From Phlegmacium glaucopus (taxonomy: Eukaryota > Basidiomycota > Agaricomycetes > Agaricales > Cortinariaceae): 64,000 bases of DNA. The DNA is taken from positions 62,001 to 126,000 of the forward strand of contig MU130361.1 in NCBI GenBank assembly GCA_015039465.1, given 5' to 3'. This document shows positions 26,921-62,828 of the stretch, piece by piece. The translations under genes were made by a program, and so were the position numbers. A model generated the notes under the pieces. That model searched no databases. It was not told the DNA's origin and saw only the letters and a program-made list of their open reading frames with translations. Positions within the stretch are counted from its first letter, which is position 1; every line of letters starts with the position of its first letter.

Positions 26921-27044
26921 TATGTACGGTGCTTAGTAACGCCCGAACTGTGATTGGTTGATCTATAGTTATGTCACACAAATGTGAGTATTTTTCAAAG
27001 ATATACCTCTATGTCTGCAACTCCGTCCTTTTCTTTCGACCGCC

Positions 27045-39112: not shown

Positions 39113-39209
39113 GGAATCCATATGAATACAGTGTTTGAAAGTCCAGTTAGGTCTGGTTATTGGGTACCTGGACCCTCTAACTGAGACTGATATAAATCAT
39201 TGTTTGTGT

Positions 39210-40650
39210 TGTTATATAACACCAACCAGAGAGCAATGGACTAGTCTTTAAGTTGAAAGCCTCACTGTTGTTCATTTAGGGAAGGTATAACCTTGACTTG
39301 TAGCACACTAAGGTGGGGGGGGGGAGAATAGAGATGAGAAGGATGAGGATGAAGATCTTAGAAGGTGACTGAGGTAGAGGATGAGGATGAGGATAAATGA
39401 GAAAGAGTCTTTGTAAGACTATAGCAGTAGACAATAGGTTGACAGTAAGGGACTGAAAAAGCGAACTTAGAGGGATTAAGGAGGAGGATGAGGATGGATA
39501 AGAGAGTCTTCAGCAAGACTATAGCAATTGACAGTAGAGGACAGTGACAGATAAAAGGTTGAAAAAGCGAACTTGAGGAGGAATTCACTGGAATTCCACT
39601 GAGAGGATGACTGTTGGGGAGTAAGAATGAATTGGAGGGAACTACCTATCCTGGTACAAAAGAGCAGTATTTATACCCTAAGGATGAGGCTATGTAGAAC
39701 AATAAAAGGGAAAGAAGTATGTGCTGTCAAAAGAAGAATGATGAAGAGAGGACAGCTGTGAGAAGAAAAGAACAATGGAAAAGAAGAAGGAACAATAAAA
39801 AGATCTGTAAAGTGTCAAAGTGTGAGAGAAAAGAAGAGAAGGCAGTGTACATAGTCCAATAGCAAAAAATATATCAACTCCATAGGCATGTGGTCATGTC
39901 AAAAATGTGAAAGGTCCTGAGTCAACACTTGAAAGGTGCAGCCTTGTTCCCAAGAAAATACTACTTGTCCATGATCCCATGTCGTGCAGCCTTGATAACA
40001 CTTGACACTCTGTGAGAATAATCCTCTGCTGCTGATTCATCTGCAACTCCTGCTTAGTCATGATCCTCCTGGACTTCCTAAATTGTCATAAAGAGGGTGG
40101 GAAGGCTTCAGGTACTGTGTGAATGATGGTTTTGGCAGTGAATGATAAGATAAGAGGTAGATAATTGAGGATAGGGGACTGAGTGAGATCCAGGAGTGAG
40201 GTATGGCAAGATAGATAGCTGAGGGGAAGACTTGTGGGTCCATAGCCACAACAATGATGACAAAGCCTTTTACATAATGGGAGATGTAGTTGATGTGTCC
40301 ATAAAGGGGCTGTTCTTGAAATGATGGGCCAAAGATATGATCAAATGCGAGCCGATGACTGATGTGAATAGTAGATTGATCACTTTGTTGAATCACTAGC
40401 CAAGGAACAAATGGATGGTAGATGTTTAGGAGCATGTTGATAGTGTAAATGATTGAGAGCATAGTGGAAGACATTGAGAATATGATGAGTGATGAGGATG
40501 ATAACATTGAATGAATGATTTTATTGACCAGGAATGCGATTCAGGGCTGCTTCCAAAACAGGCAAGTGAATTCAAAGTCTGCTTATTTTCATGATGGCAA
40601 CTTTTAAGCTTTGTTCCCATGCTACCAATCAGTATTGGTGTGCGATACCG
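39210..40650 (-). mobile_element. 1.4-kb LTR-like repeat, copy A
   Basis: Inverted copy of 60014-61399. On the minus strand it reads from about 40650 (GGTATCGCACACC) to 39210 (GTTATATAACA). Midway it has GTATAAATACTGCTC-type TATA sequence, then the stretch with AAGTTCGCTTTTTC and CT-rich blocks, as in an LTR U3-R-U5. It holds a 149-codon open frame (40507-40058, starting MLSSSSLIIFSMSS) also present, though frameshifted, in copy B. The end beside 40661 interrupts the KDZ-associated gene. Flanks do not give a clear target duplication. Confidence 0.65.
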
Positions 40651-40660
40651 GTCGCGTCAG

Positions 40661-40839
40661 GTTGTTAATGGGGTTTTACAATTATGAATGGCACAACACG
40701 GGTGTCCCAGTGTCAACTCCATCCATGACAGTGACCCAAACAGACTTGATAGCTTTAAAAATAGGGTGAAATAATAAATCTCACAGCTATGAGCATATGG
40801 ATATTGTACTTACCTTTACCGTTCTCATCTTCATAAATA
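40661..40839 (-). pseudogene. C-terminal CxC6 part of the split KDZ-associated gene
   Basis: On the minus strand, directly next to the copia LTR, the frame reads YEDENGK, then a GT-AG intron (donor GTAAGT), then IKSVWVTVMDGVDTG and, after a one-base slip, PCCAIHNCKTPL. This Cys-Cys and His-x-Cys pattern is that of the CxC6 cysteine cluster associated with KDZ transposases. The first codons continue the frame that is broken at 49135 (CKKCTHI), once copia and the inversion are removed. It runs into the LTR-like repeat copy A at 40650. Confidence 0.75.
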
Positions 40840-41797
40840 TGGTAGAATTGCCTCATTAGTCTCCTGACATGTGATCAGATCTTACTCCATTTAACTTTCA
40901 TCTCAGATTACATCTTAGATTACATCTTAGATTATATCTGATCTGATCTGATCTCCAAGATCTAGTATCTGATCTCAGATCAGATCCTTTCACACACTGT
41001 CAAGATATCTCCAGATAGGTTTCTTATTGTTCTCTTTTATATATAATCAGTAGCTAGCTTGCCAGAAGTCCCCAGTTACTCACTCTGGACTTCAGGCAAG
41101 TACTTAGTTGTTTTACTCAATATATATAGTTACTCACTCTGGACTTCAGCTTACCATAGCTCTTGTGTCACTTACTTTGAGTTCCTCTAATTAGTGATGT
41201 GCCGGCTCTGGCCTCAGGCCAGAAGCCGGGCCAAGCCGGGCCAAGCCGGGCCCAGAGGTTGGCCTAAGGGGGCTTTTGGCCCGGCTTATGTACCTTAGAT
41301 ATAGCTCTTAAATACCAAATTTTTGGGCAAATTTTTTGATATTTTTGCAATGGAAATGCATCAAAATTGAATTCTGTGTCAAACACAAGGCTCATGGAGA
41401 GCTGCGCTGCACTGCCGCTGATGTTCAATGAGCTCCATCAGTGCTTTAATTTCAATCAAAATTTGTCCAATCTGTTGATTGTGCTTAATTCAGGTCAATT
41501 CTTTGTCTCTTGCACCGAAAACTCCAAAGAATAGTGTAAATACATTAGATTATTCATATCTAACACTAAATAAAATACTTTCAAAGTGAGAACTTACAAA
41601 TTCAAACATATCTGCTGAAAGCCCCGGCCCTGGCCAAGCCTGATTTTTGGCTTTTGGCCCGGCTCACACTTTCATGAAGCCTGAGCCGCCTCAAGCCAGG
41701 CCAAAGCCAGGGCGTTCAGGCCAAACCTGAGCCGGCACATCACTACCTCTAATCTCGCACGCAGCTGTCTTGCACGCCACTCTACTTGCCTGCTTCA
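40840..41797 (+). mobile_element. copia 5' LTR, interrupted by a hAT-type MITE
   Basis: Begins TGGTAGAATTGCCTC (other copies: TGTTAGAATTGCCTC) and ends CTTGCCTGCTTCAA. Without the 562-bp insertion (MITE plus one target copy) it is 396 bp, matching the solo copy of 398 bp at 42481-42878. Preceded by AAATA (40835-40839), half of the target duplication whose other half is at 49131-49135. After it come GGGTTATGGGCCCCGCG (possible primer-binding region) and the gag start. Confidence 0.9.
41192..41745. mobile_element. non-autonomous hAT-type MITE, 554 bp
   Basis: Perfect 17-bp inverted ends TAGTGATGTGCCGGCTC ... GAGCCGGCACATCACTA, flanked by the 8-bp duplication CCTCTAAT at 41184-41191 and 41746-41753. 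Eight-bp duplication plus TAG-type ends is the hAT signature. No transposase ORF. Two other LTR copies in the window (near 42526 and 49186) show the empty site with a single CCTCTAAT. Confidence 0.92.
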
Positions 41798-42164
41798 ATG
41801 GGTTATGGGCCCCGCGCTCTAAGCGCCCCAATTAAGCATTTTACAAACTTGCTCTTTTAGTACTTAGTTTTCACAAAGCATATTACCACTCTATTTTTGT
41901 ACCCCTTGCCAGGCCAAGCCTTATATTGCTTCCGCCAGTACGGAAGGACGTGCACGCTCATTAGGACTGCGTCTAACCCGGAACAACCGTCTGGACTCTG
42001 TGTTTGAATACAAATTTTCATTTTAACTAGTTTACACTTAGTTTAGCTTTCTGCAAGTTTGAAACACTATCTGCCTGTGGAACATCGTGCAATTCACCGT
42101 ACCACGCTCACACGTCGTACTATACGTGCTCACACACTTATACGCCTATACATCACATTTCATC

Positions 42165-42420
42165 ATGTCCTTAGCCAACTCCTCACCATGCTTCACCAAA
42201 CTTAATTCCACTAACTACCCAACTTGGGCTGGTAATATGGAAGCTTGGTTTTGCTCCTCTGGTCTCTGGCGCATCGTAAATGGCTCTACTCCATTGCCCA
42301 GTCTCTCTGCAGAACCAACAGATGCACAGTTACTTGCAGTTGAAACCTGGGAGACAAAATCAGACAAGGCTTGCAGGATGGTTATTTTTGATGGTAGAGG
42401 ATGATCAGAAAGTCCATTTC
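42165..42420 (+). pseudogene. copia gag, N-terminal part, cut by inversion
   Basis: ATG at 42165; FTKLNSTNYPTWAGNMEAWF and GLWRIVNGSTPLP are the classic copia gag (UBN2/DUF4219-like) start. A one-base slip moves the frame to FLMVEDDQKVHF near 42400, where copia similarity stops abruptly and gypsy gag begins. The missing continuation (RDNPVAMWTALQAVHMQ) lies on the opposite strand from 52680 downward. Confidence 0.85.
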
Positions 42421-43720
42421 AATGAAATCAGACCTATCCCTCCAAAAGAATATCATGGTATGGCAGATGCATGTTTATATTGTTGAAGCAGGCAAGTAGA
42501 GTGGCGTGCAAAGCAGCTGCGTGCGAGATTAGAGGAACTCAAGGTAAGTGACACAAGAGCTATGGTAAGCTGAAATCCAGAGTGAGTAACTGTATATATT
42601 GAGTAAAACAACTAAGTACTTGCCTGAAGTCCAGAGTGAGTAACTGGGGACTTCTGGCAAGCTAGCTACTGATTATATATAAAAGAGAACAATAAGAAAC
42701 CTATCTGGAGATATCTTGACAGTGTGTGAAAGGATCTGATCTGAGATCAGATACTAGATCTGGAGATCAGATCAGATCAGATATAATCTAAGATATAATC
42801 TAAGATGTAATCTGAGATGAAAGTTAAATGGAGTAAGATATGATCACATGTCAGGAGACTAATGAGGCAATTCTAACATATATCACCAGTTCGTCCATGA
42901 GAGTGAAGCTTATCTTCAGGATGGCAAGGTTCGAGGACGATGAAAGGTGTTCTTGTTGTCCTACTTCCTGACTGGGAAAGCCTACGACTTCTACACTTCC
43001 TATTGATTATTGAATGCAGATGAGGAGGTCCTTAGCTCAGCGTCATCAGAATGGGAAAGTGTTGCAGAATATGTTCATGAGCTCCAAGAATTATTCAATA
43101 TGATAGGAGACATACCTGAGCAAGACAAGGTCATTTAATTCTGGAATAGCTCCAGGCCTATAATTCAGAAAGGCTTTGGGAGAGATAATCTTAATCCCCT
43201 TGGGATGAAGTGGTTTTGCAAGCAGAGATCATTCAGATATCTGAGAAGGTTGCAGAAAGACAAGACCATCAACATGGATAGCTGCCTCAGCCAGCCAGGT
43301 CTATGGGAAATTCCAGACCCAAAACTCAACAGACGGATTGATCCATTCAATTGGTAACCTTTGATTCCCATCAGAACTCTGATGCTGGAGGAAGCAAGTT
43401 TCAGCATAAAAATAACCATCAAAAAGATCTCACCAGTCACATACACCCAGGACTGATGATAGTAAATCCCAAACGAGTAAAGGGAAGTCTCCGTCATCTG
43501 GGAAGAGCCATTTGCATCGAAGTCATCAAACTAATAGTAACCATGATACTCTGCATCTGGCCAATTGTCATGCGGAACATATGTCAGACATGTTCATGGG
43601 CCTTGCCTTGCGAGCACAGACTTCATTTGATGCTTGTCAGGAGAAATGCCCTATCCCAGGTCCATTATAGATAGATGCAAATATTTTAGATAACTTCCAA
43701 AATGAATTAAAGGGCATGAA
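42421..43720 (+). pseudogene. gypsy gag, C-terminal part, decayed
   Basis: Starts inside a gag at NEIRPIPPKEYHGMADA. Solo LTR 42481-42878 interrupts it, then it resumes as HQFVHESEAYLQDGKV, KVFLLSYFLTGKAYDFYT, EYVHELQELFNMIGDIPEQD and PIIQKGFGRDNLNP, the conserved gag core of mushroom Ty3/gypsy elements. In-frame stops (TGA after RGR, TGA after TSY, TAA after KVI) and frame changes show it is dead. Its N-terminal part is on the minus strand at 52681-53445. Confidence 0.8.
42481..42878 (-). mobile_element. solo copia LTR, 398 bp, target duplication TATAT
   Basis: Minus-strand LTR with ends TGTTAGAATTGCC and GCCTGCTTCAACA. Flanked by TATAT at 42476-42480 and 42879-42883. Inserted in the gypsy gag frame between Leu-Tyr and His-Gln. 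Confidence 0.93.
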
Positions 43721-43764
43721 GTTGTGACATCACAGTTTTACCTAGTAGTACCCCTGCCATCAGC

Positions 43765-44850
43765 ATGTTCTCAAGGCCAGAAAACGCAGCACACCTTAGA
43801 CCACTTGTCCCCAGCCACATTGTCAATCAACTCCAGGAACACATGGGTCAAAAAGAGCATAAAGCAACAATTGCAGATCTTCAGTCATTCTCAGCAACTG
43901 AAGCACAGCGGTGTATGCTGAGAACAAATATTCTCAATGTATTATATTACTCAGTTGATTTGCACCCATCTGTTGGGATTGTTAGTATGTTGTGGTTTCC
44001 ACATTGTCGCACCCAAGTCAATTCAGTCTTGTCTTTATCTGGAGCCACCGTCATTCCGCCTGACTGAGCAGGTGGAAGATGATGCAGTCAGTATGCTACT
44101 GGAGGATAGCCCTGGTGATTGCATCAGGAAAATATAGAAAAAACTTAAACAGGCTTATTCTTGGCTTAGTGGGCTTATTGCCTGCTAAGCACAAATAAGC
44201 CAAAAATAAGAAAATGACTTGGCTTACACAGGCTTAATGAGTACTTAAGGCTACTTATTTGAGCTTGGAATTCAAAATCTGGTGATCTAAGTTGAATTAA
44301 GTACAAATTAAGTGTGTTAAGTTGTAAATTAAGGCATCTAAGCCAAGTCATTTACTTATTTTTGGCTTATTTGTGCTTAGCAGGCAATAAGCCCACTAAG
44401 CCAAGAATAAGCCTGTTTAAGTTTTTTCTAGATTTTCCTGATGTGGTGGGTCAGTGGCAACCAGGAGAAGTTGAATGGCATTGATTTAATTTGGGGCTGG
44501 AGACATTTTGAGGCATCTGTAAGTAAATCCTTTGAGAGGTCTCTATCTTACTGATGGATTATGTTTTTAGCTCCTTGGTCCATTGGTCAGCCTTGATGAT
44601 ATTACTGAGGCAGAAATTGCTCAGCGCAAGGATGGGCTGATTGAATCCCAGAATATGGTGCGGAGTACGTATGCAAGATATGCCCGACAAAATATGGCCT
44701 TAGAGGAGGAAATTGGGGAGATCAAAGCTGACGATCAGGAGCTGGAGGTCATTAAAAGACATGATACTTATTACCCAATCAAGGTGGCTCTGATTCCCTC
44801 AAATTTCCAATGTCAGTTGACAATTAAATTCTTTTCCAAGCTCATAGCTT
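43765..44850 (+). pseudogene. unrecognised transposon-type gene with a foldback insertion
   Basis: Two coding-like blocks on the plus strand: RPENAAHLRPLVPSHIVNQL with ATIADLQSFSATEAQRCMLR, later VEDDAVSMLLEDSPGDC; then, after the foldback element, KLNGIDLIWGWRHFEAS, an intron starting GTAAGT, and SLDDITEAEIAQRKDGLIES, SQNMVRSTYARYARQNMALE, EEIGEIKADDQELEVIKRHD. The residue pattern is that of a real protein, helical and charged, but I do not know the family. Frame changes and the insertion suggest it is no longer active. Confidence 0.45.
44123..44442. mobile_element. foldback (long inverted repeat) element, 320 bp
   Basis: Arms of about 105 bp, nearly perfect: ATCAGGAAAATATAGAAAAA ... paired with TTTTTCTAGATTTTCCTGAT, including the shared core CAGGCTTATTCTTGGCTTAG. 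The centre is AT-rich. No clear target duplication and no ORF. Confidence 0.85.
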
Positions 44851-44924
44851 CGTAGCTTGTGCTGAGGGAATCAAATTCTGAGTAAATAGTGCAATTAGGA
44901 AGACCACAATTTGTTTGGATTACT

Positions 44925-45623
44925 GGAAACTTTGGAAATAAATTCAATATTACAGCCTTATCTTTGGTATATGAGGTAATATGCTGTTGGGTTTGGCAGG
45001 ACCAAACCTCCAGCAGATGTTGCCAATTGAATTCCTGCAGAGCTGCATGCATCATTTGAAGGTCTGATAATGGGGTATAAGCCAGTAGGCGCTGCGGGAT
45101 CTGGACATTTCAGGCTTGGCTTTTCAGAAAATCCAGTTGGTCAGGTTTCCTGAGAGCCGGGCCTGAAGTAGAGCAGTGGATGGGTGAAACCATTAAATTT
45201 CTTCCAAATCAAGATCTTGCAGAGCCACACCGTTACATGGCGCAAGATATGACTCTGCAGGATTTGATTTCTGTAATATTGAATTGATTTCCAAAGTTTC
45301 CAGTAATCCCTGCTGCAGCTCCTTTGCAAGAAATGTAATGTTTTCACTTATCCATTGCTTTACTTCAGGCTTGGCTTTCAGAAAATCCGACTAACTGGAT
45401 TTCCTGAAAAGCGAAGCCTGAAATATCCAGATCCCACAGCTCCTACTGGCTTATAGCCCATTATCGGACCTTCAAATGATGCGGCTCTGCAGGAATTCAA
45501 TCCGCAACATCTGCCAGAAGTGTGGTCCTGCCAAACCCACCAGCATATTACCTCGTATACCAAAGATATGGCTCTGCGGGATTTGATTTCTGTAATATTG
45601 AATTTATTTCCAATTTTCAAACC
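44925..45623. repeat. inverted repeat of coding sequence (arms 44925-45152 and 45365-45623)
   Basis: The two arms are diverged reverse complements. Both encode the same peptide style: SNDAALQEFNPQHLPEVWSC on plus in the right arm, AALQEFNWQHLLEVWSC on minus in the left arm, with HQHITSYTKD and ILNLFP following. The spacer has a third part-copy in plus orientation (RYMAQDMTLQDLISVILN at about 45225-45290). Arms meet in small hairpins with CAGGCTTGGCTTT/GCGAAGCCTGAA. Confidence 0.7.
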
Positions 45624-46149
45624 TTTACCACTAGAAGCATTAAGAAAGCCTAGGCGCAGGTACTGCATTGAAGCTGACACCCCTGCCTGTTCTGATGCCT
45701 GACCAGCACTGACAATGTAGCCTGTTGTGGCTTGATTTGGTAGTTGTGTCATAGAATGTGTAGGTTAGGCCAAAGGTCTGTTGGCAGACCAGTTACATTA
45801 CATCAGACCCAATTCAACTGCAGCAACCTGGATCCAGTGATGCTGTTTCACTTGATCCAGTTTCCTTAGAATTGGATCCAATGTGTTGTACTTTTATCAG
45901 TTCCAGTGAGCCCCATAGCACCTGGTGAGGCTTGGCAGGATTTGACCTGGACATAATATTGGCCCTACAGCTATGGAACAGTACTGACAGAGGCAGAAAT
46001 TCCAGCAGAACCCAAGGGCCTATTTTAATTCTTGCTGGACTACATTTACAGGTTTATACATTTTCTACATTTTCAATGTAATCCAATTGCTTCATCCATC
46101 CATTAAATCCCTGGTTCCTTTGAAACTTTTGTGAAATAAATTCCAATAC

Positions 46150-47411
46150 CTTTCAGTGGAAGTATTGAACTAGGCAGAACCTGTCACCGTCGCTGTCAAC
46201 TTCCTCAATGCTGTGTGCCAGCACCTTGCCACAGAGTCCAACAATTGTCCCAGGATTATATTGGAACTGTAGACCAATTCCAGGAACCTCCAATTGACCG
46301 TTAGTATAATGGCCCAAAGTTGTGATAATATCATAAAATGGGGCAAACCCCTTTCCATCGCGATGCAAAATGGTCTCTCAATTGGAGATAATGGAAAACA
46401 CGGTGAAGGGAGAGGGCCAAAGTACTCATTTGGGCCTCAGAGAATTTGGTGCTGCATTAGTAATTTCCCCATTTTGAATGGCACAGAGAATTGAGAATGC
46501 CCGCACAGCAAGCTTGGGATGGATTATTGCCAAGATGGCGCTGAGCAAGAATAAGGATTCCAAGTCGGTGTGCAGATATTGAATAATGGGGGAGTGGGGC
46601 CAGCCACGGAAGGACCCAGAGACAGACAACTGGTGTGCAACATTGAACCAACATGGTGAAAAGGGTATGTGGCCAGCTGAAGTGGGTGTAGTCCTGGTGG
46701 CCTTATACCCCCTCTCCTGCCATTTCAGACTCTTGGATTTGGAAACCTCTGGAAGGCTTCCTTTGAAACTCTTGTCAAGGTTGTGCATCCTCACAGTCAT
46801 TTTAAGCTTGCATACAGTTAGTAAATTTGTAAATAATCCAATAAGGTTGAACATACATTCCGGGATGTAGTGATTGCACCAGGCAGGTACCAAAGCACTA
46901 TAATCCCGCAGGAATCAACCACAGTACAGGGAACGTCTTGCAGTGGTAGGCAGTGCCCTTCCGTAGCGGTAAAGAGAGGCAGAAATCTCTTCCGTAGCGC
47001 AGCCTCACTTTCCTCCATACCAATATTTTGACAAGTAGTCAATGAGTCGGCATACTGCTCAATTGGTGGACTTGGGAAATGTTCGAGGCTGGCCAGCTAG
47101 AAAGGTTCTTGGACTTACTGGGGTTGTGGAATGCCTTGTAGACGTGACCTACAATCATTTCACAGTCTTTTAGAAATGGGTAGGATAACTGGGGGCAAGG
47201 TAAAGGATGCTGGACCCTGTGAATTCGGGATAAGGAATGAGTCATGTATAGTGCTATCTCTTCTGAAAGATTCATAGGTCCTTGCGGGAATTTGAGGGCA
47301 GAGAAAGGCATTGTGATGGTTGAGGATAGGCAGTCTTGCAGCTGTAGTGTGGAGAAGCAAGAAATAAGAACTGGTCAAGTTTGGGTGCCAATTATTGACA
47401 GGAGAAAGCAA
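46150..47411 (-). pseudogene. TET/JBP-like 2-oxoglutarate/Fe(II) dioxygenase, decayed
   Basis: Relative of TET/JBP enzymes that oxidise 5-methylcytosine or thymine in DNA; such genes are expanded in mushrooms beside KDZ transposons. Minus-strand blocks in order: FLKDCEMIVGHVYKAFHNPS, CQNIGMEESEAALRKRFLPL, DVPCTVVDSCGIIVLWYLPG, GHIPFSPCWFNVAHQLS, SLFLLSAILAIIHPKL, SPFTVFSIISN, then the core with the Fe-binding His and Asp in LHRDGKGFAPFYDIITTLG, LEVPGIGLQFQYNPGTIVGL and distal CGKVLAHSIEEVDSDGDRFC. The core frame is still open, but a frame slip follows SSMPTH near 47040 and TGA replaces an expected Arg in ISN-stop-ETILHRD, with another stop before VLWPS. Neighbour on the right is the divergent CxC5/CxC6 gene. 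Confidence 0.72.
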
Positions 47412-47554
47412 TTGTTGAAAACTGAATATTGCTAAGACTGAAATATTGTGGCTGGGAATTGAGTCTTATAACTTTGATACTCACATTAATATAGTACTCA
47501 TCCTGCTCCTTGCTGCAGCTGTAGGATGACATGGGATGGTGTGGTATAAATTGT

Positions 47555-47680
47555 TGTTGTTGTTTTAGACTTGTAACACACAGAGGTAGGGGGTGAGAAT
47601 AGAGATAAGAAGGATGAGGATGAATGAGAAAGAGTCTTCAGTAAGACTAGACTGAAAAAGCGAACTTAGGGACTAATGCT
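47555..47680 (-). mobile_element. fragment of the 1.4-kb LTR-like repeat
   Basis: Matches part of copy A (39300-39450): GACTTGTA(A/G)CACAC, then GAATAGAGAT(A/G)AGAAGGATG, AATGAGAAAGAGTCTT and GACTGAAAAAGCGAACTTAG. Ends are lost. It lies between the divergent TET/JBP-like and CxC5/CxC6 genes. Confidence 0.65.
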
Positions 47681-47765
47681 TGTAAATTTATACTACCAGC
47701 ATCAATTAATCTATAGTAATCCTACCTCCTAGCCAATGCTGCAGGATGACACAGGATGAGAATAA

Positions 47766-48032
47766 TTAATTAGGCCAGGGAAGTTCATCTATTTCATTTG
47801 CCACAAGCTCCCCCATAATTGTAAGAATGGCAAGCTTGCCCATAGCCATAAGTGTAAAGTCACATGCCCAAGCTTCCAAGTTAGCCTCATCACACCAGAA
47901 AGTTCTGTATTTCAAATTTCCGCCTGTCCACCTTTTCCACCTGTCTGCCAGATCACATGTGTGATACACCACGTGCCTACCAACGCCAGTATTAATCAAT
48001 GCACAAACCTCCCTGTGTAATACTAAATTCAT
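47766..48032 (-). CDS. unrecognised open frame, 88 codons
   Basis: Reads MNLVLHREVCALINTGVGRH ... and ends in a region KLAILTIMGELVANEIDELP with protein-like residue choice. No family recognised. It lies between the starts of the TET/JBP-like gene and the CxC gene, so it may be an exon or a relic of the same transposon. Low confidence that it is a gene. Confidence 0.25.
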   Translation of the reverse strand: MNLVLHREVCALINTGVGRHVVYHTCDLADRWKRWTGGNLKYRTFWCDEANLEAWACDFTLMAMGKLAILTIMGELVANEIDELPWPN

Positions 48033-48056
48033 ATCTCAATATAATGACTGTAGAAG

Positions 48057-49135
48057 ATGTTGCCAACCTCTTTTCCTGAAGCTCTAAACCATGATATGCT
48101 TATCAAAATTTCCTCATTTCTTCTCTATACATCACAATTCAAGAATGATATCCTTCTTGCCCAAGCGTCAAATGGGCCAGCTGGCGACCCACCTTTGTTC
48201 TTGCCCCAATCAGTGGCAATTATTCTCTCTAATCTCTGTGACATAGACCTAGCATCAAGCGATAAGCTATGGTCATATCTGAAGGATGCTGTGTGGCATT
48301 ATGCTGAGACAGCAAAGGTTGTTGATGAAAGATTCAAGTGTTATGGGAAAGATCTGGGGTTTAGTGGGTTCTGCTTAATCTGAAAATTTTTGACATGTTA
48401 ATCTAATATCAATAGGTTCTTTATATCCTCCAGTTAATTATTGTATCAATGGCCAGTGTAAGCCAGCAGCAAAGGGCTTGAAGCTTCAGAAGACGGATCA
48501 AACTCAAGGTGTGCTATATACTTTGGATAAAGGTGTTCATCCGGTTTGGGTGATAACATTCCAATGTGTTGGTATATATAAATTTTATTGCCGATTTAAG
48601 ATGAATGCTGAATACACAAAATTCAGAATGTCAGAGAGCCTATTACCACAACTATTTTATGGAGGGCGGCATGCGGTATTATTATGATGGTGATCTACCA
48701 GATGTAATCCAGGTTGAGGAGCATCAATTTGTTGAGAGGAAGGTTGTAAACATGTGGCGGACAGATATGAATGTTGCATGGTATGTTTCAATCTCTTGCA
48801 GAGCATGCTTATCATTTTTGTTGATTTTCACTTCATGTCACACAGGAAATCATTTACAAACTGTGCTCGTACCTATGAAATTTCTCTCTCAGTGCCCAAT
48901 TGCCATCCTGCAGATTGGCCATTCAAAGCTGCATTGAAAGGGGATCATGTATGAGATGCATTCACAATCCTATCCCTGCTCAAAGACCACCATGAATGCA
49001 ATACAGCCTTGGTAGTGCCCCATACAGGGGACCAAGCAGGTCGGTTCATGGAAGCCATCAAAGCCCGAAACACACACTTCAAAATTTATGGGCAAAATGA
49101 AGTCATACATCGATGCAAGAAATGCACCCATATTT
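48057..49135 (+). pseudogene. KDZ-transposon-associated CxC5/CxC6 cysteine-cluster protein, N-terminal part
   Basis: The CxC5 and CxC6 clusters are domains that accompany Kyakuja-Dileera-Zisupton transposases in fungi. Exon 1 starts MLPTSFPEALNHDMLIKISS and is helical. After an intron comes the cluster: YPPVNYCINGQCKPAAKG, GVLYTLDKGVHPVWVITFQC, then ECQRAYYHNYFMEGGMRYYY, DGDLPDVIQVEEHQFVERKV, and after another intron SFTNCARTYEISLSVPNCHP. CxC6 begins with RNTHFKIYGQNEVIHRCKKC. A TGA replaces an expected Trp (GDHV-stop-DAF, near 48950). The gene stops at 49135, where a copia LTR begins; its continuation is on the minus strand at 40661-40839. Divergent from the TET/JBP-like gene. Confidence 0.75.
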
Positions 49136-49326
49136 TGTTGAAGCAGGCAAATAGAGTGGCGTGCAAGACAGCTGCGTGCGAGATTAGAGGAACTCAAAGT
49201 AAGTGACACAAGAGCTATGGTAAGCTGAAGTCCAGAGTGAGTAACTATATATATTGAGTAAAACAACTAAGTACTTGCCTGAAGTCCAGAGTGAGTAACT
49301 GGGGACTTCTGGCAAGCTAGCTACTG
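49136..49326 (-). mobile_element. copia 3' LTR, 5' half deleted
   Basis: Minus-strand LTR end: TGTTGAAGCAGGCAA at 49136 is the reverse complement of the LTR terminus. It covers about 191 bp and then joins pol directly at CAGTAGCTAGC. The flanking TATTT (49131-49135) is the reverse complement of AAATA before the 5' LTR at 40840. Confidence 0.9.
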
Positions 49327-52300
49327 AGTGTTCAATCCACCAGAGTAAGTCAATTTATGATCTAAGGTTCCTTTACAATATCGCAATAAATGCTTGACCG
49401 CTGCCCAATGACTAGGGCCAGGATTGGAGTTGAACCGTGCCAAATAAGACACACTGTATGCAATATCTGGATGAGTCATAGTACCTAGATATTGAAGGGA
49501 ACCAATTGCACTAAGGTAGGGGACACTCTTCATGAATGTCTCTTCCTCTGGCATAGGTGTCAGGACAGGATGACAGTCACTCATACTATAATGTTCAAGT
49601 ATGTCAAGGATGAACTGGCACTGATGAAGTCTGATGGTGTGAGATTTGTGATCTCTAGTGATCCCAACACCAAGCAAATATTCTGTAGGTCCTAGGACTC
49701 GACATTTGAAATGTTGTGCAAGTTGATCCATAGCCTTCTCAATGGCAGCAGTGGACTTGGATGCAAAGGTGATATCATCAATATAAATGGGTACAATGAT
49801 CTTAACCTCTCCATTAGTGTAAATGTAAACAGAGCGGTCAGATTCAATGTGTTTGAAACTCATATCGCTGAGAGCATCATGAAGTTTCTTATTCCATTGA
49901 CAAGCAGACTGCTTTAAACCATACAAAGATTTTTGCAGTCTGCATACCATATTGTGTCCACCTTGATGGAATCCCTCTGGTTGAGTCATATATATCTCTG
50001 TCACCATTAGTGAAAGCAGAGGAGATGTCAAGGGAATGCAATTCAAGGTCCTGTGTAGCTGCTAGGGCAAGGATCAAGCGTAGTGTTGCAGGTCTAAATG
50101 TAGGAGCAAAGACCTCTGTGTAGTCAATGCCTGGTCGCTGACTGTAGCCTTTGGCAACAATTCTAGCTTTATAACGTTCAATAGAACCATCTGCATTACG
50201 CTTGACTCTAAAGACCCAACCAGATCCAATTGCCTTCTGCCCATGTGGGAGTTCAACCAATTCCCATGTGCCAGTTTGCAAGAGAATGTTGTATTCAGCA
50301 TTAGCAGCTTCTGCCCAGCGCTCTGCATCATCACTCTTCATTGCTTGTTTATAGGTGCGTGGCTCAGCTCCTGCTGCTAATCCTGCAAACTGGACTTCTT
50401 CCAACCTATCATCCTCACCATCACTCTCCAGTATAGGAGGAGGGGTTCTCACCTTCCACCAATCCATGTAGAGCGCCTAGGTAATTGTGGCTCAGGTGCA
50501 TTGAGTGGTAATTGAGGTGGAAGTGGAGGACTTTCTGGTAGTGGTAATAGCTCAGGTGCTACAATGGGTGGTGGTGATTGGGGTAGAATTAGAGGACTTT
50601 GTGGAATTGGAATTGAAAGTGGAGAAATTATCATATTCAATGGTTCATCATCCCCCCCAAAATTAGGCAAGGGTGACAGATTGGCACCAGGTGATGAAGG
50701 AACCTGAAGATTGATTTTAGACAATGGACCAACAGACAAGCCGAGGAAGTAATGTTCATCAAATTCTGCACGTTCACAGATGATGTACTTCCTTGTGGTA
50801 GGATTATAGAATTTCCATCCTTTATATCCAGAAGGATAACCAACAAAGATACATTTCTCTATGTGTGACTGAAGAGATTTATGTTTGTCCCCTTGTATGT
50901 AGACATATGCAGTGCATCCCCAAACTCACAAGTGCTCTACATCAGGTTTCCTTTTGAACCATGCCTCATAAGGTGTAGTGTGAGGTAATGATGCAGTAGG
51001 AAGACGATTCCATATGTGGATGTGAGCAGCAAGACATTCACCCCAGAATGAAGCAGGTAAGTGTGACTCTGAGAGCATAGTAGTAATATCATCACTCATA
51101 GTGCGATTAGCTCTTTCAGCTGCTCCATTCATTTGAGGGCGGTTGCGAGTGGTATGACGACGCATAATTCCACAACTATCAGTGAACCTGATGAAAGCAT
51201 TTGACATGTAATCACCACCTTTGTCATCCTGCATGGATTTGATCTTGCAATTCAATTGATTCTCAGCATAAGCTTTGAATGTTTTGAATGCTTCAAATGT
51301 ATCACTCTTCTGTTTGAGCAACATAGCTACTCTGAATTTTGTGCAATCATCAATGAAGACAACCCAAGAGCGATAGCCTTCTGGTGTTGCAACAGGAAGA
51401 GGACCATGTAAATCAGTGTGGATCAATTCCAAAGGGTGCAAGGATTGACTGGGAGATGTAGGGAATGGATTTGAATGGATTTTGCCTGACAGGCAAGGTT
51501 CACATATAGGATCTGGCTTTTGCTTTGTATCTAATACAAGTCCAGTTACCAACTCTTCATTGATCATCTTCTGAACATCTCTGAAGCTATGATGTGCTAA
51601 ATGACGATGCCAGAGATTGATATCAAGAGGAAGAGTTGAGACAATGTTGGCATACTCAGAAATAGGTTCTGTGACACCATCCAGCATGGCAGCATTGTTG
51701 TCTGTAATTGAAGCAGAGAACAAAGTAGCACCTTTGTGGATGAAATTCATGCATTTTGAATTGATATGAACTTCAAAACCTTTATGACGTGTCAAGTACA
51801 GAACTGACAATAAATTACTTCGAAGTTGTGGTACATGTAAGACTCTTGTCCATTCTACAGATCTGATTTCCTTTCCGTTTACAATTGGGCGAAAACGCAC
51901 AGAACCAACCTCAACAGCATAGACAATGGTATTGTCTGCTAGCCTGATTGGTATGCTTGTTTGGACATAGTTTCGAATCCAGTGACGATGAGGGGTCATA
52001 AAAGAAGTGGCCCCTGTGTCTGCATTCCAATCAAAGTCAGCATCTGTTTGTAAAGGGTTGGAAGGATTGGAGGGATCAAAAGTAGAAGAAAGAGCACTTG
52101 CATTTCCAGCAAATTCAACAACATTACCTTTGGCTTTGTTGGCCTTGTTACCACCTCTGCGCTTTTTGGCATTATTCTCCTTTGCAGACTTCTGAGCATT
52201 GATGAATTGATAACATTTCTCCATGATGTGGTTTGTCATACCACAGAAGTCACATTTTTCTTTGGAAGTTGGAGTTGAAGAAGATGATGCAGAAAAGGCT

Positions 52301-52680
52301 GTACCAACAGATGGCATGTCTGAAGCATGACGGCGGCGTTGGGTTTCCTCTCCAACAAAAGCCTGATGAATTGTAGCTTTGTCCAATTTATCCAGCAGGA
52401 GGAGTGATGAAGTGAATGCACTGTACTCATCTGGGAGAGCACAAATCATTGCCATTGAGGCAAGCTCATCATCAAGCTGCTTCAGGTCAAAGCCAGCAGG
52501 GCAAAGATCCTGAATGCGACGTAGAGCTGCATCCACTCTATTCATGAGTGTTTGCAAAGATTCGTCCTCCTGCTTTCTAATTGAGAACAAATCATCATAA
52601 GCATTGAACCTGTGACCAGGATGCTTCTGCATATGAACTGCTTGAAGAGCAGTCCACATAGCAACTGGGTTGTCTCTTAT
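49327..52680 (-). pseudogene. copia gag-pol, RNase H missing, N-terminus cut by inversion
   Basis: Minus-strand polyprotein. Gag remainder RDNPVAMWTALQAVHMQ with FNAYDDLFSIRKQEDESL; zinc knuckle CDFCGMTNHIMEKC; protease WNADTGATSFMT; integrase zinc region HRHLAHHSFRDVQK with CEPCLSGK, and catalytic motifs HTDLHGPLP, FIDDCTKF, DKGGDYMS and RNRPQMNGAAERANRT; then RT with WVFRVKRNADGSIERYKARI and VAKGYSQRPGIDYTEVFAP, HSLDISSAFTNGD, the YIDDITFASK active site, and GTMTHPDIAYSVSYLARF. The frame from 52659 to 50926 is open. RT has a frame break near 49985-50000 and the linker near 50650. It ends at LTYSGGLNTQ, so RNase H is deleted and pol abuts the LTR. Confidence 0.9.
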
Positions 52681-53445
52681 AATTGATTCTGGTGACTCTG
52701 ACTGGGTACGTCGGTGCTTGTGTTTGCTATGACACTGCTTCCTCTGTCGTTGATCCCGACGCTTTCATTTAGGTTCTTCCAGTATACTGCCATTGGTATT
52801 ATCTTCAAACTCGGACTCAGTTTCAGATGGAGACAATGAACTATACTCAGGAGACTCAAAGGGGTCAATCCTTCACTGTTTCGGACCTCAGGTATGGCTA
52901 AAGAGCAGCCCCCAAGTAACTTTTTGGGGCTATCTGCGCTGACAAACTGGGCAGCTAATTACTTTTTCCAACACTCAATCTCGTGGTGTAGTCATGACTG
53001 CTTGCCTATTGCTCAACACCAATTCACCATGGTCTCCACATCCCTGTAGTTAACGATGTTCACATCTCTGAGATGTACTAACACGAGTATTTTTTGTATG
53101 AGTGTAATACAGCTGCCTGAGTATTCACATCTAGTTCTTCCTGCTTGAGGCCCACATTTCCCCATTCTCAGGGGTTGATTACTGCATGGTTAAGGCATCT
53201 GCTGCTGCTCTAATGATGTGGTCCAGCTCAACAGCCATTTGTCTAGCACTAGGGCTCAAACCTATTTGGTGCTTCTGGGTCCTTTTGATGACCTGGGAAC
53301 CTGGGACTATGTGCACATCTGCGCTGGACTTGTCCAAGGAGAATCTTCTTGGCTGTGAGGATAGTCTCAATGCAACAACATCGCTGTACATTCGCGATCC
53401 TGTCATTGCATCGGTTGTGTGGTTTGTTACAACATTGTGGACCAT
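52681..53445 (-). pseudogene. gypsy gag, N-terminal part, cut by inversion
   Basis: Minus-strand start MVHNVVTNHTTDAMTGSRMY with SDVVALRLSSQPRRFSLDKS, then DPFESPEYSSLSPSETESEF, EDNTNGSILEEPK-stop-KRRD, and basic HSKHKHRRTQSESPES. Such acidic-then-basic, Ser-rich N-termini are usual for mushroom gypsy gags. Similarity switches to copia gag at RDNPVAMW (52680). Continuation NEIRPIPPKEYHG is at 42421 on the plus strand. Contains a TGA or TAG-type interruption, so inactive. Confidence 0.7.
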
Positions 53446-53529
53446 TAACTTGTTGCTCGGGTTAATGAGAGGTTGAGAGGGAACGGGTATAGTTTGAGCT
53501 GGGCTGGGCCAGTTAGCTACTCTGGTACA

Positions 53530-53965
53530 AGCTTATAAATTATAGGTTCTGGTAGACATAGTCAGTATTGCGAAACTTGAGATGGGGATGGTCTGGGTGA
53601 TCAGTCTGAAGGCTCCTAGGTGTCTAGACGGTGAAGTAGATGGTGTTGAAAGAAGCTTTTGTAGTGTCAAAAAAGATGTGATGAAAGTGGCTGCTATGAC
53701 GGATAGCGACAGTGTGGTTTTGGCACACAGAGGAATCACACGAGAAAAGACAGAACATTAAGCTAGTATGATTCACTGGGGAGCTATCTATGAATGGAGG
53801 GGTATTTATACCAGTAGGTAGATAGCCACATAATTAGTCGGTAATTGGAATGATAAGTAATCTAGGGTAAATGAAGGTGAAACACAGCTAAGGCTGCTAT
53901 ACCAAAGAAAGTAATCAGAAAAGAATGTGACGAGGTTGGATTAACAAGGGGTATTCATTACAATC
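53530..53965 (-). mobile_element. probable gypsy 5' LTR
   Basis: On the minus strand, a TATA box GGTATAAATACCCCTCC (about 53796-53812) is followed by a CT-rich leader and the gag start 350 bp later, the layout of an LTR promoter. A likely start is TGTAATGAATACCCC near 53965. Exact ends and a duplication were not found. Confidence 0.55.
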
Positions 53966-54780
53966 ATGATCACCAGTCAGAGTAGACAAAACTCAAGTTT
54001 TTTGCCTCTCCACCTCCAAGTGCAAACCTCCTTGCAGTCCCTCGTCTCAGTGGTACATAAATCAATAAAAAACTATATCCTTCGCAACTTGCAAGATTGA
54101 CTGCCATGATGGCTTCCAGCTCTGTCCGAGATGTAGTGGTGTCCCGAAAGCCATCAGCATGCTCGGATGGACCTGTCAGCCTGACAGAGTGGCTGAAAAA
54201 ACAGGGACGTGTCATTGTGAAAATGTGCATTAGTGACACTATAAATATTGATTTTGAACTAAGTGAGCAAGCTGAAGAAGCTTGAAGGACAATCTTCTTG
54301 CAGCCCTGATGGGGAAGGAGGACAGGATCACTCAGAGTGACGATGTCACCTGATCTCTATGCATCATAATTCTATTGTGCAAAACCTTGGTACACTACAC
54401 TCATGCCTCATTCCAAGTCATTCATCTACCTCCAAGTTTCTAATCTATAACCTATTATCCTGAGATTGCCCATCTGCACTGCCACAATATACAGGCAGGT
54501 CTATCAATGAAGCAGGTAGCTACAATGATTCATGGAATTTGAATGAAAAGAGAGGGTAAGAAGAGTGATAGGAATGAAATAAGAACATATTCAAAGAAAG
54601 ATCTGAATGTCACAGGATGTCAATTGCTGGGAAACTATCCTCCAATCCCAGAATGCTCCTTTTTTCCCCTCTCAAACACCTTGATAATATGCCTTTTCTC
54701 AAATGGGAGGGCTCCTGACAACTTCCAGTGTTCATCTGTCAGCTTCTTCAAGTCATCACCTATAGAAAATCCCAAATGCT
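53966..54780. other. region without a recognised gene
   Basis: Open frame 54097-54285 (MTAMMASSSVRDVVVSRKPS) has no known domain. The rest is AT-rich relic sequence. Confidence 0.35.
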
Positions 54781-56694
54781 TGCATTGGGTCTAGCTGTGG
54801 AGCATGATTCTATAGGTCTGGTATGCTGTGAGGTACAGCAGTTAGTGATTCAATCCCAAGCCCACACAACTAAATGTGTCAGATTGATCCAGTCTTCTGT
54901 TGTCTGGCATAGCCAGTCCCTGAAATCTTCCACTGTAACCAGACAAGTCGTGAGCCACACGCTGCAACCATGCTTGTCGTTCCTCAAGAATAGTCCATAC
55001 CGCATATGCTAGGCGGCCCAAAAACCCATTGTTCAGGCAGAGGACAGCGGTTGACAGGTTATCATGTAAGTCATTGAGCTGTTAGAAAGGCTTTAGGAAC
55101 AATCAAAACATTTTCAAGGAATGAGTAATACCTGTGGCATCCCACAGCAGTGGCAGTAGTTGATAGGAAATATCAACCTCACTCTCCAAGTTTTGAATGG
55201 GCTATTTGCATCAGTCCATCCTGCTGATATCCCTGTGCATGTTGATAGATTGTGGACTGCATTATGGCCTCTTAGAAGACATGGAGTGCACTTGCCTTCA
55301 CTGCCACTGTGATTTCCAAAAGATGCTTCTTCATACCCACCATTTCCAGCCATTGCAACAAACACTCCACGGCAGGGTTTCCTTCCGCTGAGCCCTGTGT
55401 GATGACGTCTCTACTTGCATGCTGGGACCCATACTGTCCTGCAAGTGCCATCCCTGAGTACATTTATACAAGTGAAGGAAGGCATCAAATTTACCTGGCG
55501 CACTAGGCTGTTGCTCCCACCACTGCTGTTTCTTTTTTGTTTCAACGAGGTTTCGAGTTGGTTAGCATACTGAAAATAGTCATCAAGACTGGAGAGGAGA
55601 GAGAGGTAGGTGGAAACAGACATACTGCATGGTTGCTGAAGGGTACTCACCACTGGCAGAGGGGGCCCCGGGAAGCACAGTCTCATTTTCCCCTGCCCAG
55701 CAATGGATGGCCTGACAGCTGAGTTAAACCATTTCCCAATAAGCCTTCATGTGACGTTACCTGAGACACTTGTGCTGAGCACCAGCCACAAAGGGCAGCA
55801 GTAGAAAGATTGATGCAAGACTGTCCCCATCCATCAAGGAATTCACCAGTAACAAGACGTAGACATTGGTCTGTGCATAGCCATGCCTGCTGTTCCTTAA
55901 TCCCAATGTTACTTTCCCCCATCTTTACCTTGGGTGCAAACCTGTCCACATCCCAAAACACGCCTGGGCTGCTTTGCCATCTTGCCCTACTCGGCCACTC
56001 TCTTGGTTGTGGTTGATATGATTTTGTGGTGATTTATAGTGGAACACTAAATGAAAGCCATGTCAATGTCACAGCTCATAGTGTTCTGTAAAACAGCCTA
56101 GTTGCGAAAAAAGATGAGTAGATGATAATAATAAAAGATATATATAAGGACTTACTTGTAAATCAAATGCAGAGCCGCCCCAGCTTCCTGCCTCAACAGC
56201 CTATTTAATGAAGCAGTGAGTCAGCAAGTAAATTACAATAAGAAAGGAATAAGTACATACTTCCTGATCCATTAATGAATCATCCCAGCTTCTGGCCTCA
56301 ACAACCTATGTAAGGAAGGCACAGGAAGTCAGCCATATCACTCCAAACAAAGCTTTATACATACCTGCTGCGATATAGACGCCTCAATGGCAACCTCACC
56401 CATTGCAACATCTCCCTCAGGCTGAACAAGGTTAGCTAGCCTACTCCCATGGCCAATGTCATCAGGATGGATCCTTTTACAATGGTTGTACATGTCTTGA
56501 TATTGAGTATACTGAATGTCGCATCCAGGGCATGTAAACCTCTTGCTCACCACATTGTGGAGTAGAAGTATGGTACAGTGTGGTCTGCAAGGATATATTA
56601 CAGACAATCGGACAGAGTGCACTTGTTTCTTATGATTAGCCAGTTTGTAGGAAGTGTTGAAGGTGGATGCACATTTGGCACAAGTAAATTGCAT
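54781..56694 (-). CDS. multi-exon C2H2 zinc-finger protein, function unknown, possibly decayed
   Basis: Starts MQFTCAKCASTFNTSYKLAN, a C-x2-C-x12-H-x4-H finger, and after an intron has a second one, RFTCPGCDIQYTQYQDMYNH (same spacing). Two consecutive 45-nt exons, 56261-56305 and 56156-56200, encode VVEARSWDDSLMDQE and AVEAGSWGGSAFDLQ, so they are tandem duplicates. Further downstream are coding-like blocks with unclear splicing: KEQQAWLCTDQCLRLVTGEF with DGWGQSCINLSTAALCGW, SLDDYFQYANQLETSLKQKR, KFDAFLHLYKC, LESEVDISYQLLPLLWDATG and LGRLAYAVWTILEERQAWLQ. I do not know the family. Some frames carry stops, so the gene may be a pseudogene or the splice model incomplete. Its place among transposons suggests a mobile-element accessory. 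Confidence 0.5.
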
Positions 56695-60013: not shown

Positions 60014-61399
60014 TGTTATCGCGCACCAATACTGATTGGTAGCATGAGAACAAAGCTTAAAAGTTGCCATCATGAAAATAAGCGGACTTTGAATTCGCTT
60101 TTTGAATTCACTTACCTATTTTGGAAGCAGCCCTGAATCGCGTTCCTGGTCAACAAAATCATTCGTTTGACGTTAACATCCTCATCGCTCATCATATCCT
60201 CAATGTCTTCCACTATGTTGTCTATCATTTACACTATCAACATGCTCCTTAACATCTACCATCCATTCGTTCCTTGGCTAGCGATTCAACAAAGCAATCA
60301 ATCTACTATTCGCATTGGTCATCGGCTTGCGTTTGATCGCATCTATGGCCCATCATTTCAAGAATGGCCCGTTTATGGACACATCAGCTACATCTCCCAT
60401 TATGTCAAAGGCTTTGTCATCGTTGTTGTGGCTATGGACCCACAAGTCTTGCCATACCTCGCTCCTGGATCGCACTCAGTCCCCTATCCTCACTCATCTA
60501 CCTCTTATCTTATCATTCACTGCCAAAACCATCATTCACGCGGTACCTGAAGCCTTCTCACCCTCTTTATGACAATTTAGGAAGTCCAGGAGGATCATGA
60601 CTAAGCAGGAATTGCAGATGAATCAGCAGCAGAGGATTATTCTCGCAGAGTGTCAAGTGTTATCAAGGCTGCGCGACATGGGATCATGGGCAAGTAGTAT
60701 TTTCTTGGGAACAAGGCTGTGCCTTTCAAGTGTTGACTCAGGACCTTTCATATTTTGACATGACCACACGGCTATGGAGTTGATATATTTTTACTATTGG
60801 GCTATGTGTACTGCCTTCTCTTCTTTTCTCTCGCACTTTGACACTTGTACAGATTTTTTTACCGTTCCTTTTTCTTTTCCATTGTTCTTTTCTTCTCGCA
60901 GCTGTCCTTTCTTCATTCTTCTTCTGACAGCGTGTACTTCTTTCTTTTTTTATTGTTTTACATAGCCTCATCCTTAGGTATAAATACTGCTCTTTTGTAC
61001 CAGGATAGGTAGTTCAGTTCAATTCATTCTTACCCCCCAATAATCATCATCTCAGTGGAATTCCAGTGAATTCCTTCCTCAAGTTCGCTTTTTCTGCCTT
61101 TAACTGTCAATCTATCCCCCACTGTCAATCACTATAGTCTTGCTGAAGACTCTTCCTCTATCATCCTCATCCACATCCTCTACTCCCTTCGCTTTTTCAG
61201 CCTCTTACTTGTCACCATCCCCTACTGTCAACCGCTGTAGTCTCACCAAAGACTCTCTCATATTCATCCTCATCCACCTCTATTCTTGCCCCCAACCTCT
61301 GTGTGTTAAAAGTCAAGGTTATACCTTCCCTAAACGAACAACAGGGAGTCTCTTGACCTAAGGTCTGGTCCACTGCTCTCTGGTTGGAGTTTATATACA
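60014..61399 (+). mobile_element. 1.4-kb LTR-like repeat, copy B
   Basis: Starts TGTTATCGCGCACC and runs to about TATATACAACA at 61399. Inside are the open frame MTLTSSSLIISSMSS (frameshifted against copy A), a TATA box GGTATAAATACTGCTC near 60978, and a CT-rich R-U5-like part with AAGTTCGCTTTTTC. About 85-90% similar to copy A by eye, in opposite orientation and 20 kb away. Flanks give no clear duplication. Confidence 0.7.
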
Positions 61400-61914
61400 A
61401 CAACAACAACGATTTATAACGTGGCAAATCCATGACCTCACCCGACCTCATCTGACTTGAACTAACCTCCTCAGTTTACTGTTATCCTCTGCTCATATCA
61501 GAAATATCTCAGCACACCTCTGCAGAGCTCCAATCCCGTTCTCACTGGGATATTGATCGGGGATCAGTTGATCACACATGAACACAATTACTAGAGTATT
61601 AACAATTGCGATAACTTTATCATATTCCCCAAACTTATATTTGATCAATCAAGCTGTTGGCTGTTGGATGTTGAGGATCAGGCATGCTCCAGTAAATGCC
61701 ATCTAGCGTTTTTAGAGCCCTGTTGAGAGTTTGCTGCAATTTGTCTCATCGAAAGTAGGCGAGATTTTGAGAGATGTGTCATGGTCCCCATGGTCAAAAG
61801 CACCAAAATATACTATTATAAGTGGTCAAACATATGAATTCCTAGAATCAGAGCAAAAGGAGTTGCCAAAACACATCCAAACCAAGAAGGATCCAATTTG
61901 ACATGTACCCCAAA
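61400..61914. other. spacer, no gene seen
   Basis: AT-rich with CAACAACAAC at the left end; could be the start of the internal region of the element to which copy B belongs, but no primer-binding site or gag is recognised. Confidence 0.35.
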
Positions 61915-62828
61915 TCAAAGCTCACATGCATAGAACCTCAATACCACCCTCAAAAACGCGCCACAGATCTGGCTGATTGGGCAAGATTGAACTTGCCGCC
62001 CAAAAAGTCTGAAGCGCTGAGAGTGGTGGAAACTTATCAACAGGTTCCTTCCAATCAGAACTGAGGTCTTATCAATGATTAAAAACCTGTTATTTAAAGT
62101 GGAACATGGTGCCCTTTGAGGTATGTTACTCTGGTCTGCAGATTTCCTCCAACCTGAGATGAGGCGCCAGGCCTGCCACTTGTTGCCGATAACAATGCTG
62201 ATGCCAACACCTGAACTGGCATCAGAGAAGGCACCTTTGTCTGTGACAAAGGCTGGTCCTGGGATGGCACGAGAAACTCTTGGCAATTGGAGTGCATGAA
62301 GCCACCAAACAAGGTCAGCTGGGGTGTGACAAGGGGTGTGATGGGGTACAAAGGGGTTTGAGTTGAAAGGACCAATGAGGGCTTCCAAACCAGTAAGGTA
62401 AGCCTGGCCTGCCGGAAAAACCAGACTAGCATGTAGAAGCTTGCCATAAAGCTTCTGGGCTTCTTCCAAGGTGTGGGTAGATTGTGATAACCAATCTTCG
62501 ATCACTGTCCTATATTTAGCCTTTTGTTTTCCATAATGACAACGGTGCATTCTGAAATGTTCCATTTGAAGCCCAAGTAAGGCACAGTTGATGAAAAAGG
62601 TATAGCTTTTGATGGTTCCCATGGGATACCAAGCTGTTCAGAGATGGTGTTGATGTCCGTGTCACAATAAGTGAATGCTGAACCTGGGTGGGACCTGTCT
62701 GGGAGATTGGAAAAATCTTCAATTGGGCAAGCTGCATCTTCATCAAACTCTGCAGGTAAGTTGTTAGGTAGAGTTTCTTCCTGATACCAAAAGTGACTAC
62801 CAGACTGAACCCAACCTCCATTTTGCAT
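61915..62828 (-). pseudogene. DIRS-like retroelement, RT C-terminus and RNase H fragment
   Basis: Reverse transcriptase/RNase H of the tyrosine-recombinase (DIRS) class common in mushrooms. Minus strand: FTYCDTDINTISEQLGIPWE, then IPFSSTVPYLGFKWNISECT in one frame; after a slip near 62510 YRTVIEDWLSQSTHTLEEAQ, KLYGKLLHASLVFPAGQAYL, ADLVWWLHALQLPRVSRAIP and the RNase H piece DKGAFSDASSGVGISIVIGN, KWQAWRLISGW. Both ends are missing: no RT catalytic palm motif and no tyrosine recombinase in the window. The frame slip and truncation make it a relic. Confidence 0.8.

Follow-up and report, generated by a model that had tools for sequence, protein, structure and literature searches.

The window considered here is a DNA stretch of 64,000 nucleotides, corresponding to positions 62001-126000 of contig C129 in a genome assembly of 60.5 Mb and 259 contigs, and all the loci compared with it are copies within this one assembly. 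It contains a copia-type long terminal repeat (LTR) retrotransposon inserted into a CxC5 gene (KDZ-transposase-associated), as well as part of a gypsy element, and the copia, gypsy and CxC5 sequences are each found in two pieces on opposite strands. The copia element has gag, integrase and reverse transcriptase regions in the copia-type order (Pfam matches PF14223, PF22936, PF13976, PF00665, PF25597 and PF07727, in this order), together with LTRs and a 5-bp target-site duplication. The reading frames of its larger, reversed gag-pol part are broken, and the element lacks a stretch running from the end of pol into the beginning of its 3' LTR (positions 4368 to ~5590 in the C61 copy). Among the protein matches listed for copia pol, the named ones are from fungi, including Agrocybe chaxingu (the first named), Agaricus bisporus and Trametes cinnabarina, which are mushroom-forming basidiomycetes. 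The gypsy element, of which only the gag and LTR part is present in the window, keeps the name given to it in a first-pass annotation of this DNA; two of its relatives in the genome, C46 and C224, have LTR-like repeats ~9 kb apart. The same annotation had named the gene CxC5/CxC6; PF18718 matches two pieces of it (E-values of 6e-16 and 2e-13; 59.0 and 50.7 bits, with a cut-off of 26.9), which bears out CxC5, but the CxC6 model had no match on the gene pieces tested.

Flipping the segment 42433-52674 restores the order of copia, gypsy and the CxC5 gene with 0 bases gained or lost, the absence of loss at the gypsy join depending on parental bases reconstructed from relatives. Both chimeric junctions are present in the assembled sequence. 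At junction 1, copia extends through 42432 (...CATTTCAATGAAATCAGA) and gypsy starts at 42433 (CCTATCCC); at junction 2, read on the minus strand, gypsy extends through ...ATCAATTATA plus a shared AGA (52677-52675), and copia GACAACCC starts at 52674. After the flip, the rejoined frames are open in both elements, copia reading VHFNEIR/DNPVAMW and gypsy ESPESIIR/PIPPKEYHG (the slash marks the break). The first-pass annotation had proposed an inversion that can be undone from the window alone, with both gag frames continuing, and this is borne out by the colinearity of copia, gypsy and CxC5, the open frames and the matching target-site duplications. The breakpoints that it placed at 42420 and 52680 correspond to real junctions, but the positions were off by ~12 and 3-6 bp, respectively. 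Judged from the assembled sequence, the inversion is well supported and is resolved to the base.

The two copia parts were queried separately against the genome, 49300-52680 on the minus strand (reversed) and 41810-42425 on the plus strand (unreversed), and they adjoin on one strand at all four loci whose matches reach the break (C61, C171, C129 at 133 kb, which is outside the window, and C195); other copia matches, for example C131, stop short of the break. The four loci read CATTTCAA(T/C)GAAATCAGAG, followed by coding sequence resembling that of DNPVAMW, with one extra base slightly downstream of the break in C195 and GD in place of DN in C61. Similarly, the four-residue gap of VHF-NEIR-DNP is present in 21/21 protein homologues matching a search pattern in which the gap could be 2 to 8 residues long, the other 99 of the 120 homologues listed not matching this pattern. 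Because relatives and homologues read VHF-NEIR-DNP, copia continues through 42432 at junction 1. The copia relatives, together with the gypsy start at 42433, also assign to copia the NEIR that had previously been given to gypsy gag, and VHF is followed by NEI-RDNPVAMW, not directly by RDNPVAMW as had been predicted. The target-site duplications AAATA and TATTT, which are the same 5 bases in opposite orientation, are found at the copia ends exactly where they had been reported (Table 1).

The gypsy relatives read through the break at the 3/3 loci read (C46, C224 and C168; e.g., SPASVIR/PIPPKEYHG). C46 and C224 both read GCATCTGTAATAAGGCCGATTCCTCCTAAAGAATATCAC (SPASVIRPIPPKEYH) and C168 reads SRPTIKPIPPKEYSGVADA, where the window reads GAATCAATTATAAGA and CCTATCCCTCCAAAAGAATATCAT, and the gypsy join needs no base added or removed. 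The CxC5 flanks separated by copia in the window are colinear on one strand, and without copia, at five of six paralogous loci (C25, C240, C145, C144 and C147), in agreement with the proposal that the gene continues across the empty copia site; at the sixth, C207, the match is too short and the second flank is not within it. The C25 paralog, with 89% identity over 48040-49128, is colinear at the base level, its sequence running to 49128 and then, four bases later, into the opposite-strand sequence of the window at 40838 and below, and in the remaining four both flanks are consecutive on one strand with about the expected spacing. That there was no inversion, and that unrelated truncated copia and gypsy fragments lie side by side by chance, has a negligible probability, for although many transposon fragments here are truncated, these ones are exact base-level complements in both families, with matching duplications and with flanks that are colinear in the gene paralogs.

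Table 1. Coordinates of the inverted segment and of the elements cut or flanked by it, in window positions.
Feature	Positions	Strand	Remarks
Inverted segment	42433..52674		10,242 bp; both parental joins restored exactly; ends slidable by ≤3 bp within the shared AGA
AGA, junction 1	42430..42432	+	Last copia bases, common to the gypsy break site
AGA, junction 2 (TCT on +)	52675..52677	-	Common to both break sites; copia lies left of it, gypsy right
Copia target-site duplication AAATA, outer unmoved end	40835..40839	.	
Copia 5' LTR	40840..41799	+	Interrupted by a 554-bp insert at 41192-41745
Copia gag 5' part, in place	42165..42432	+	
Rest of copia gag-pol, now reversed	49328..52674	-	Pfam matches; gag, integrase and reverse transcriptase regions
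Copia 3' LTR remnant	49136..49327	-	1 mismatch to the 5' LTR in ~190 positions
Copia target-site duplication TATTT, moved end	49131..49135	.	
Gypsy LTR region and gag 5' part, in place	52675..53962	-	
Gypsy gag 3' part, now reversed	42433..43600	+	Interrupted at 42481-42878 by the solo copia LTR
Solo copia-family LTR (42481-42878) with TATAT duplications	42476..42883	-	Inside gypsy gag
CxC5 gene (KDZ-transposase-associated), 5' part, now reversed	48054..49130	+	PF18718 and paralogs
CxC5 gene region, continuation past the copia insertion, in place	40654..40834	-	Paralogs

The copia LTRs differ at 1 of ~190 positions (198 in the alignment, where the duplication made by the 554-bp insert causes 8 to count twice), and therefore the copia insertion is young; the inversion is younger than this insertion. 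The solo LTR in gypsy has 8 differences from the copia 5' LTR in 404 aligned bases and 7 from the 3' LTR remnant in 197, gap columns not being counted in either comparison, and is an insertion separate from the copia element; its site is empty in the gypsy relatives C46 and C224.

Additional small elements were found at the locus. The 554-bp insert in the copia 5' LTR has TAGTGATGTGCCGG inverted ends and an 8-bp duplication (CCTCTAAT), and it presumably represents a hAT-type small element. The sequence that follows this LTR (41800-41815, TGGGTTATGGGCCC) resembles a primer site that would pair with the anticodon arm of initiator tRNA-Met, as in half-tRNA priming. A 322-bp near-palindromic element at 44122-44443 was probably mobile recently, because five other places in the genome match it at 100%, and there are more at 94-96%. 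Also, two inverted copies of an abundant 1.46-kb repeat (the best 40 of 1,346 candidates were scored) are located at 39191-40653 and 60017-61418.

Regarding the joining mechanism, the bases shared at the crossover are AGA, that is, 3 upstream and 0 downstream. The TTCAAT and TCAATT previously put forward as microhomology lie upstream of the point where the sequences cross over. The breakpoints are free of inverted repeats of at least 40 bp, shorter ones nearby not being part of the search, which sustains the earlier view that long repeats did not recombine here. The junctions are reciprocal and restore both ancestral sequences, with no duplication or loss at either of them, as in cut-and-paste inversions. 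Here it is proposed, with a probability of about 0.88, that the 10,242-bp segment was inverted once, after the copia insertion, by two double-strand breaks and end joining. Starting from a copia element already inserted into the CxC5 gene, in a nest of transposable elements, one break would have occurred in copia gag and the other in the opposite-strand gypsy gag ~10 kb away, and the ends would then have been rejoined backwards, by a classical or a microhomology-assisted form of end joining that added and removed no base, AGA alone being common to the break sites. Of this, the assembled sequence itself displays the exact reciprocal exchange, its timing after the copia insertion and the lack of inverted repeats of at least 40 bp at the breaks, whereas the two double-strand breaks and the end joining are inferred. 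Microhomology joining is hinted at by AGA as a possibility, not proven. Some points weigh against this proposal. In a random sample of copia/gypsy site pairs, 5.7% have at least 3 bases in common (P = 0.057), AGA is not significant by itself, and classical and microhomology-mediated joining are not separable. The gypsy relatives are only ~80% identical or less, with a poor DNA alignment just upstream of the break, where the pre-inversion gypsy bases were deduced from conserved codons and frame and from the stretch around ATAAG. Moreover, the basis is a single assembly, which holds one version of the locus in the stretches tested.

The short shared AGA would also suit replication-based template switching (microhomology-mediated break-induced replication) as the source of the inverted segment, and so would other copies in the genome, described below, that show a moved inverted piece or a small inverted block with ~6 bases unaccounted for. 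This process usually leaves duplications or deletions, whereas both joins here are exactly conservative, and it is considered an unlikely origin. An assembly or library artefact, with junctions not present in the organism, is suggested by a repeat-rich region flanked by inverted copies of the many-copy 1.46-kb element and by junctions known from the assembly alone, but is quite improbable. Assembly errors usually break at repeats, but the two sequences cut here are unlike each other apart from 3 shared bp; chimeric reads would not be expected to yield a reciprocal pair of junctions that complement each other exactly; and in the assembly searched there is no second full-length match for 52676-56000 or 42882-46500, nor a second near-identical copy of 48040-49131 or 49300-52680, for which the next matches are 89% and 92%. 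Homologous recombination between inverted repeats could have used copia-family LTRs (at 40840, 42481 and 49136) or the 1.46-kb element inverted on both sides. However, the breakpoints lie in gag sequences, outside any such repeat, the 1.46-kb elements, had they recombined, would have turned round ~19 kb instead of 10.2 kb, and the three copia LTRs have the same orientation in the unflipped order, so LTR-LTR recombination would delete, not invert. Recombination between LTRs or flanking repeats was thus rejected on breakpoint position and LTR orientation, and is left with a very slight probability.

Inverted pieces were also found in other copia copies of the genome. The copies were taken from 64 matches, requiring at least two pieces including internal sequence, or more than 1 kb, and dropping LTR-only and single short matches; the grouping, which is a judgement, gave nine copies: C61, the window copy, C129-b, C131, C171-a, the older C171 fragments (1307076-1327798, grouped as one copy since they are indistinguishable from each other), C171:1269700-1270360, C195:25521-27001 and C195:20602-21023. 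An inverted piece is present in 6/9, the window copy and five others, and is lacking in C61, which is intact, and in C171:1269700-1270360 and C195:20602-21023, both colinear fragments. Among the six, only the window copy and C171-a (C171:1324480-1329976; L003, L005) have matching duplications. C171-a has its 5' half on the minus strand and its 3' half on the plus strand, with CATTG at both outer ends, and a flip of 1324480-1328053 (3.57 kb) restores the element order, with a 2-bp shared CA at the copia break; of the flanks by which its partner site could be sought, L003:900-1501 is single-copy and the outer one consists mostly of a many-copy repeat. The C131 copy (C131:473504-482317; L004, L080), whose 5' end is missing, turns from one strand to the other at 476554/482317, where the two sides fit as complements to within ~12 bp, and its parts, with 93% and 86% identity to C61, may come from two different copies. 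C129-b (L017, L012), just right of the window, is colinear except for a leader and gag start of ~150-170 bp, moved 4.7 kb and inverted (C129:128659-128827 and 133503-133506), with AACT at both cut sites, an arrangement that needs a three-break event or two inversions. The C195 copy at 25521-27001 holds an inverted block, and the older C171 fragments have a 90-bp inverted block with ~6 bases unaccounted for.

A further candidate inversion, at the break 1308103/1317294 in the older C171 fragments, was rejected, the break being due instead to a 9.2-kb insertion (C171:1308103-1317294; L082, L084) that has a CTATAAA duplication and the inverted ends TGGGGGTCG.../...CGACCCCCA.

As controls, gypsy relatives with at least two pieces were inverted in 0/5 cases (the window's own gypsy, which the inversion described above broke, being left out), the repeat from window positions 61420-64000 switches orientation in one of three multi-piece copies (C127:276959-278214), and for the 1.46-kb element none was seen by eye among the best 40 of 1,346 candidates; this comparison is post hoc, the families are not of equal age or length, and only top-ranking candidates receive a score in the search. 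The case for a recurrence specific to copia is weakened because the C127 repeat also switches orientation and because two of the copia copies counted are colinear. It is therefore a doubtful generalization that short, mostly conservative inversions are so frequent in the transposon clusters of this fungus that most copies of one copia family carry a reversed piece. If true, these elements would owe much of their fragmentation to local inversion, as a main route, and a within-genome inversion clock would be available.

Nested insertions of LTR retrotransposons are a known pattern, and here, likewise, copia, gypsy, a solo LTR and small DNA transposons are inserted in one another; however, nested insertion alone cannot leave an element with its two halves in opposite orientation and its target-site duplications separated by 8.3 kb. 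No literature joining inversion breakpoints, end joining, transposable elements and basidiomycetes was found. As in the frequent intrachromosomal inversions and mesosynteny of fungi (PMC3219968, PMC12778737), the rearrangement is local and without translocation. In these two sources, filamentous ascomycetes were compared across species or isolates by their gene order or synteny, and PMC3219968 reports no mesosynteny in the basidiomycetes surveyed, whereas here the breakpoints are base-resolved in a single genome, probably that of an agaricomycete. The present inversion shares breakage and subsequent ectopic rejoining with the cut-and-paste (end-joining) inversions described for Drosophila (PMC7584159), and is of this ordinary kind. 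Unlike the Drosophila cases, it spans 10.2 kb in a fungus, has both breaks in LTR-retrotransposon gag, and had its polarity and original order recovered from one genome. It goes beyond the routine in that one genome suffices to undo it and in that other inverted copies exist. An inversion was polarised and its ends were placed to the base in one assembly, the nested transposons providing the landmarks through the colinearity of the elements, their target-site duplications and the gene site as it was before insertion, and, if the wider pattern is true, transposon copies could be used as sensors of inversion rate in fungal genomes.

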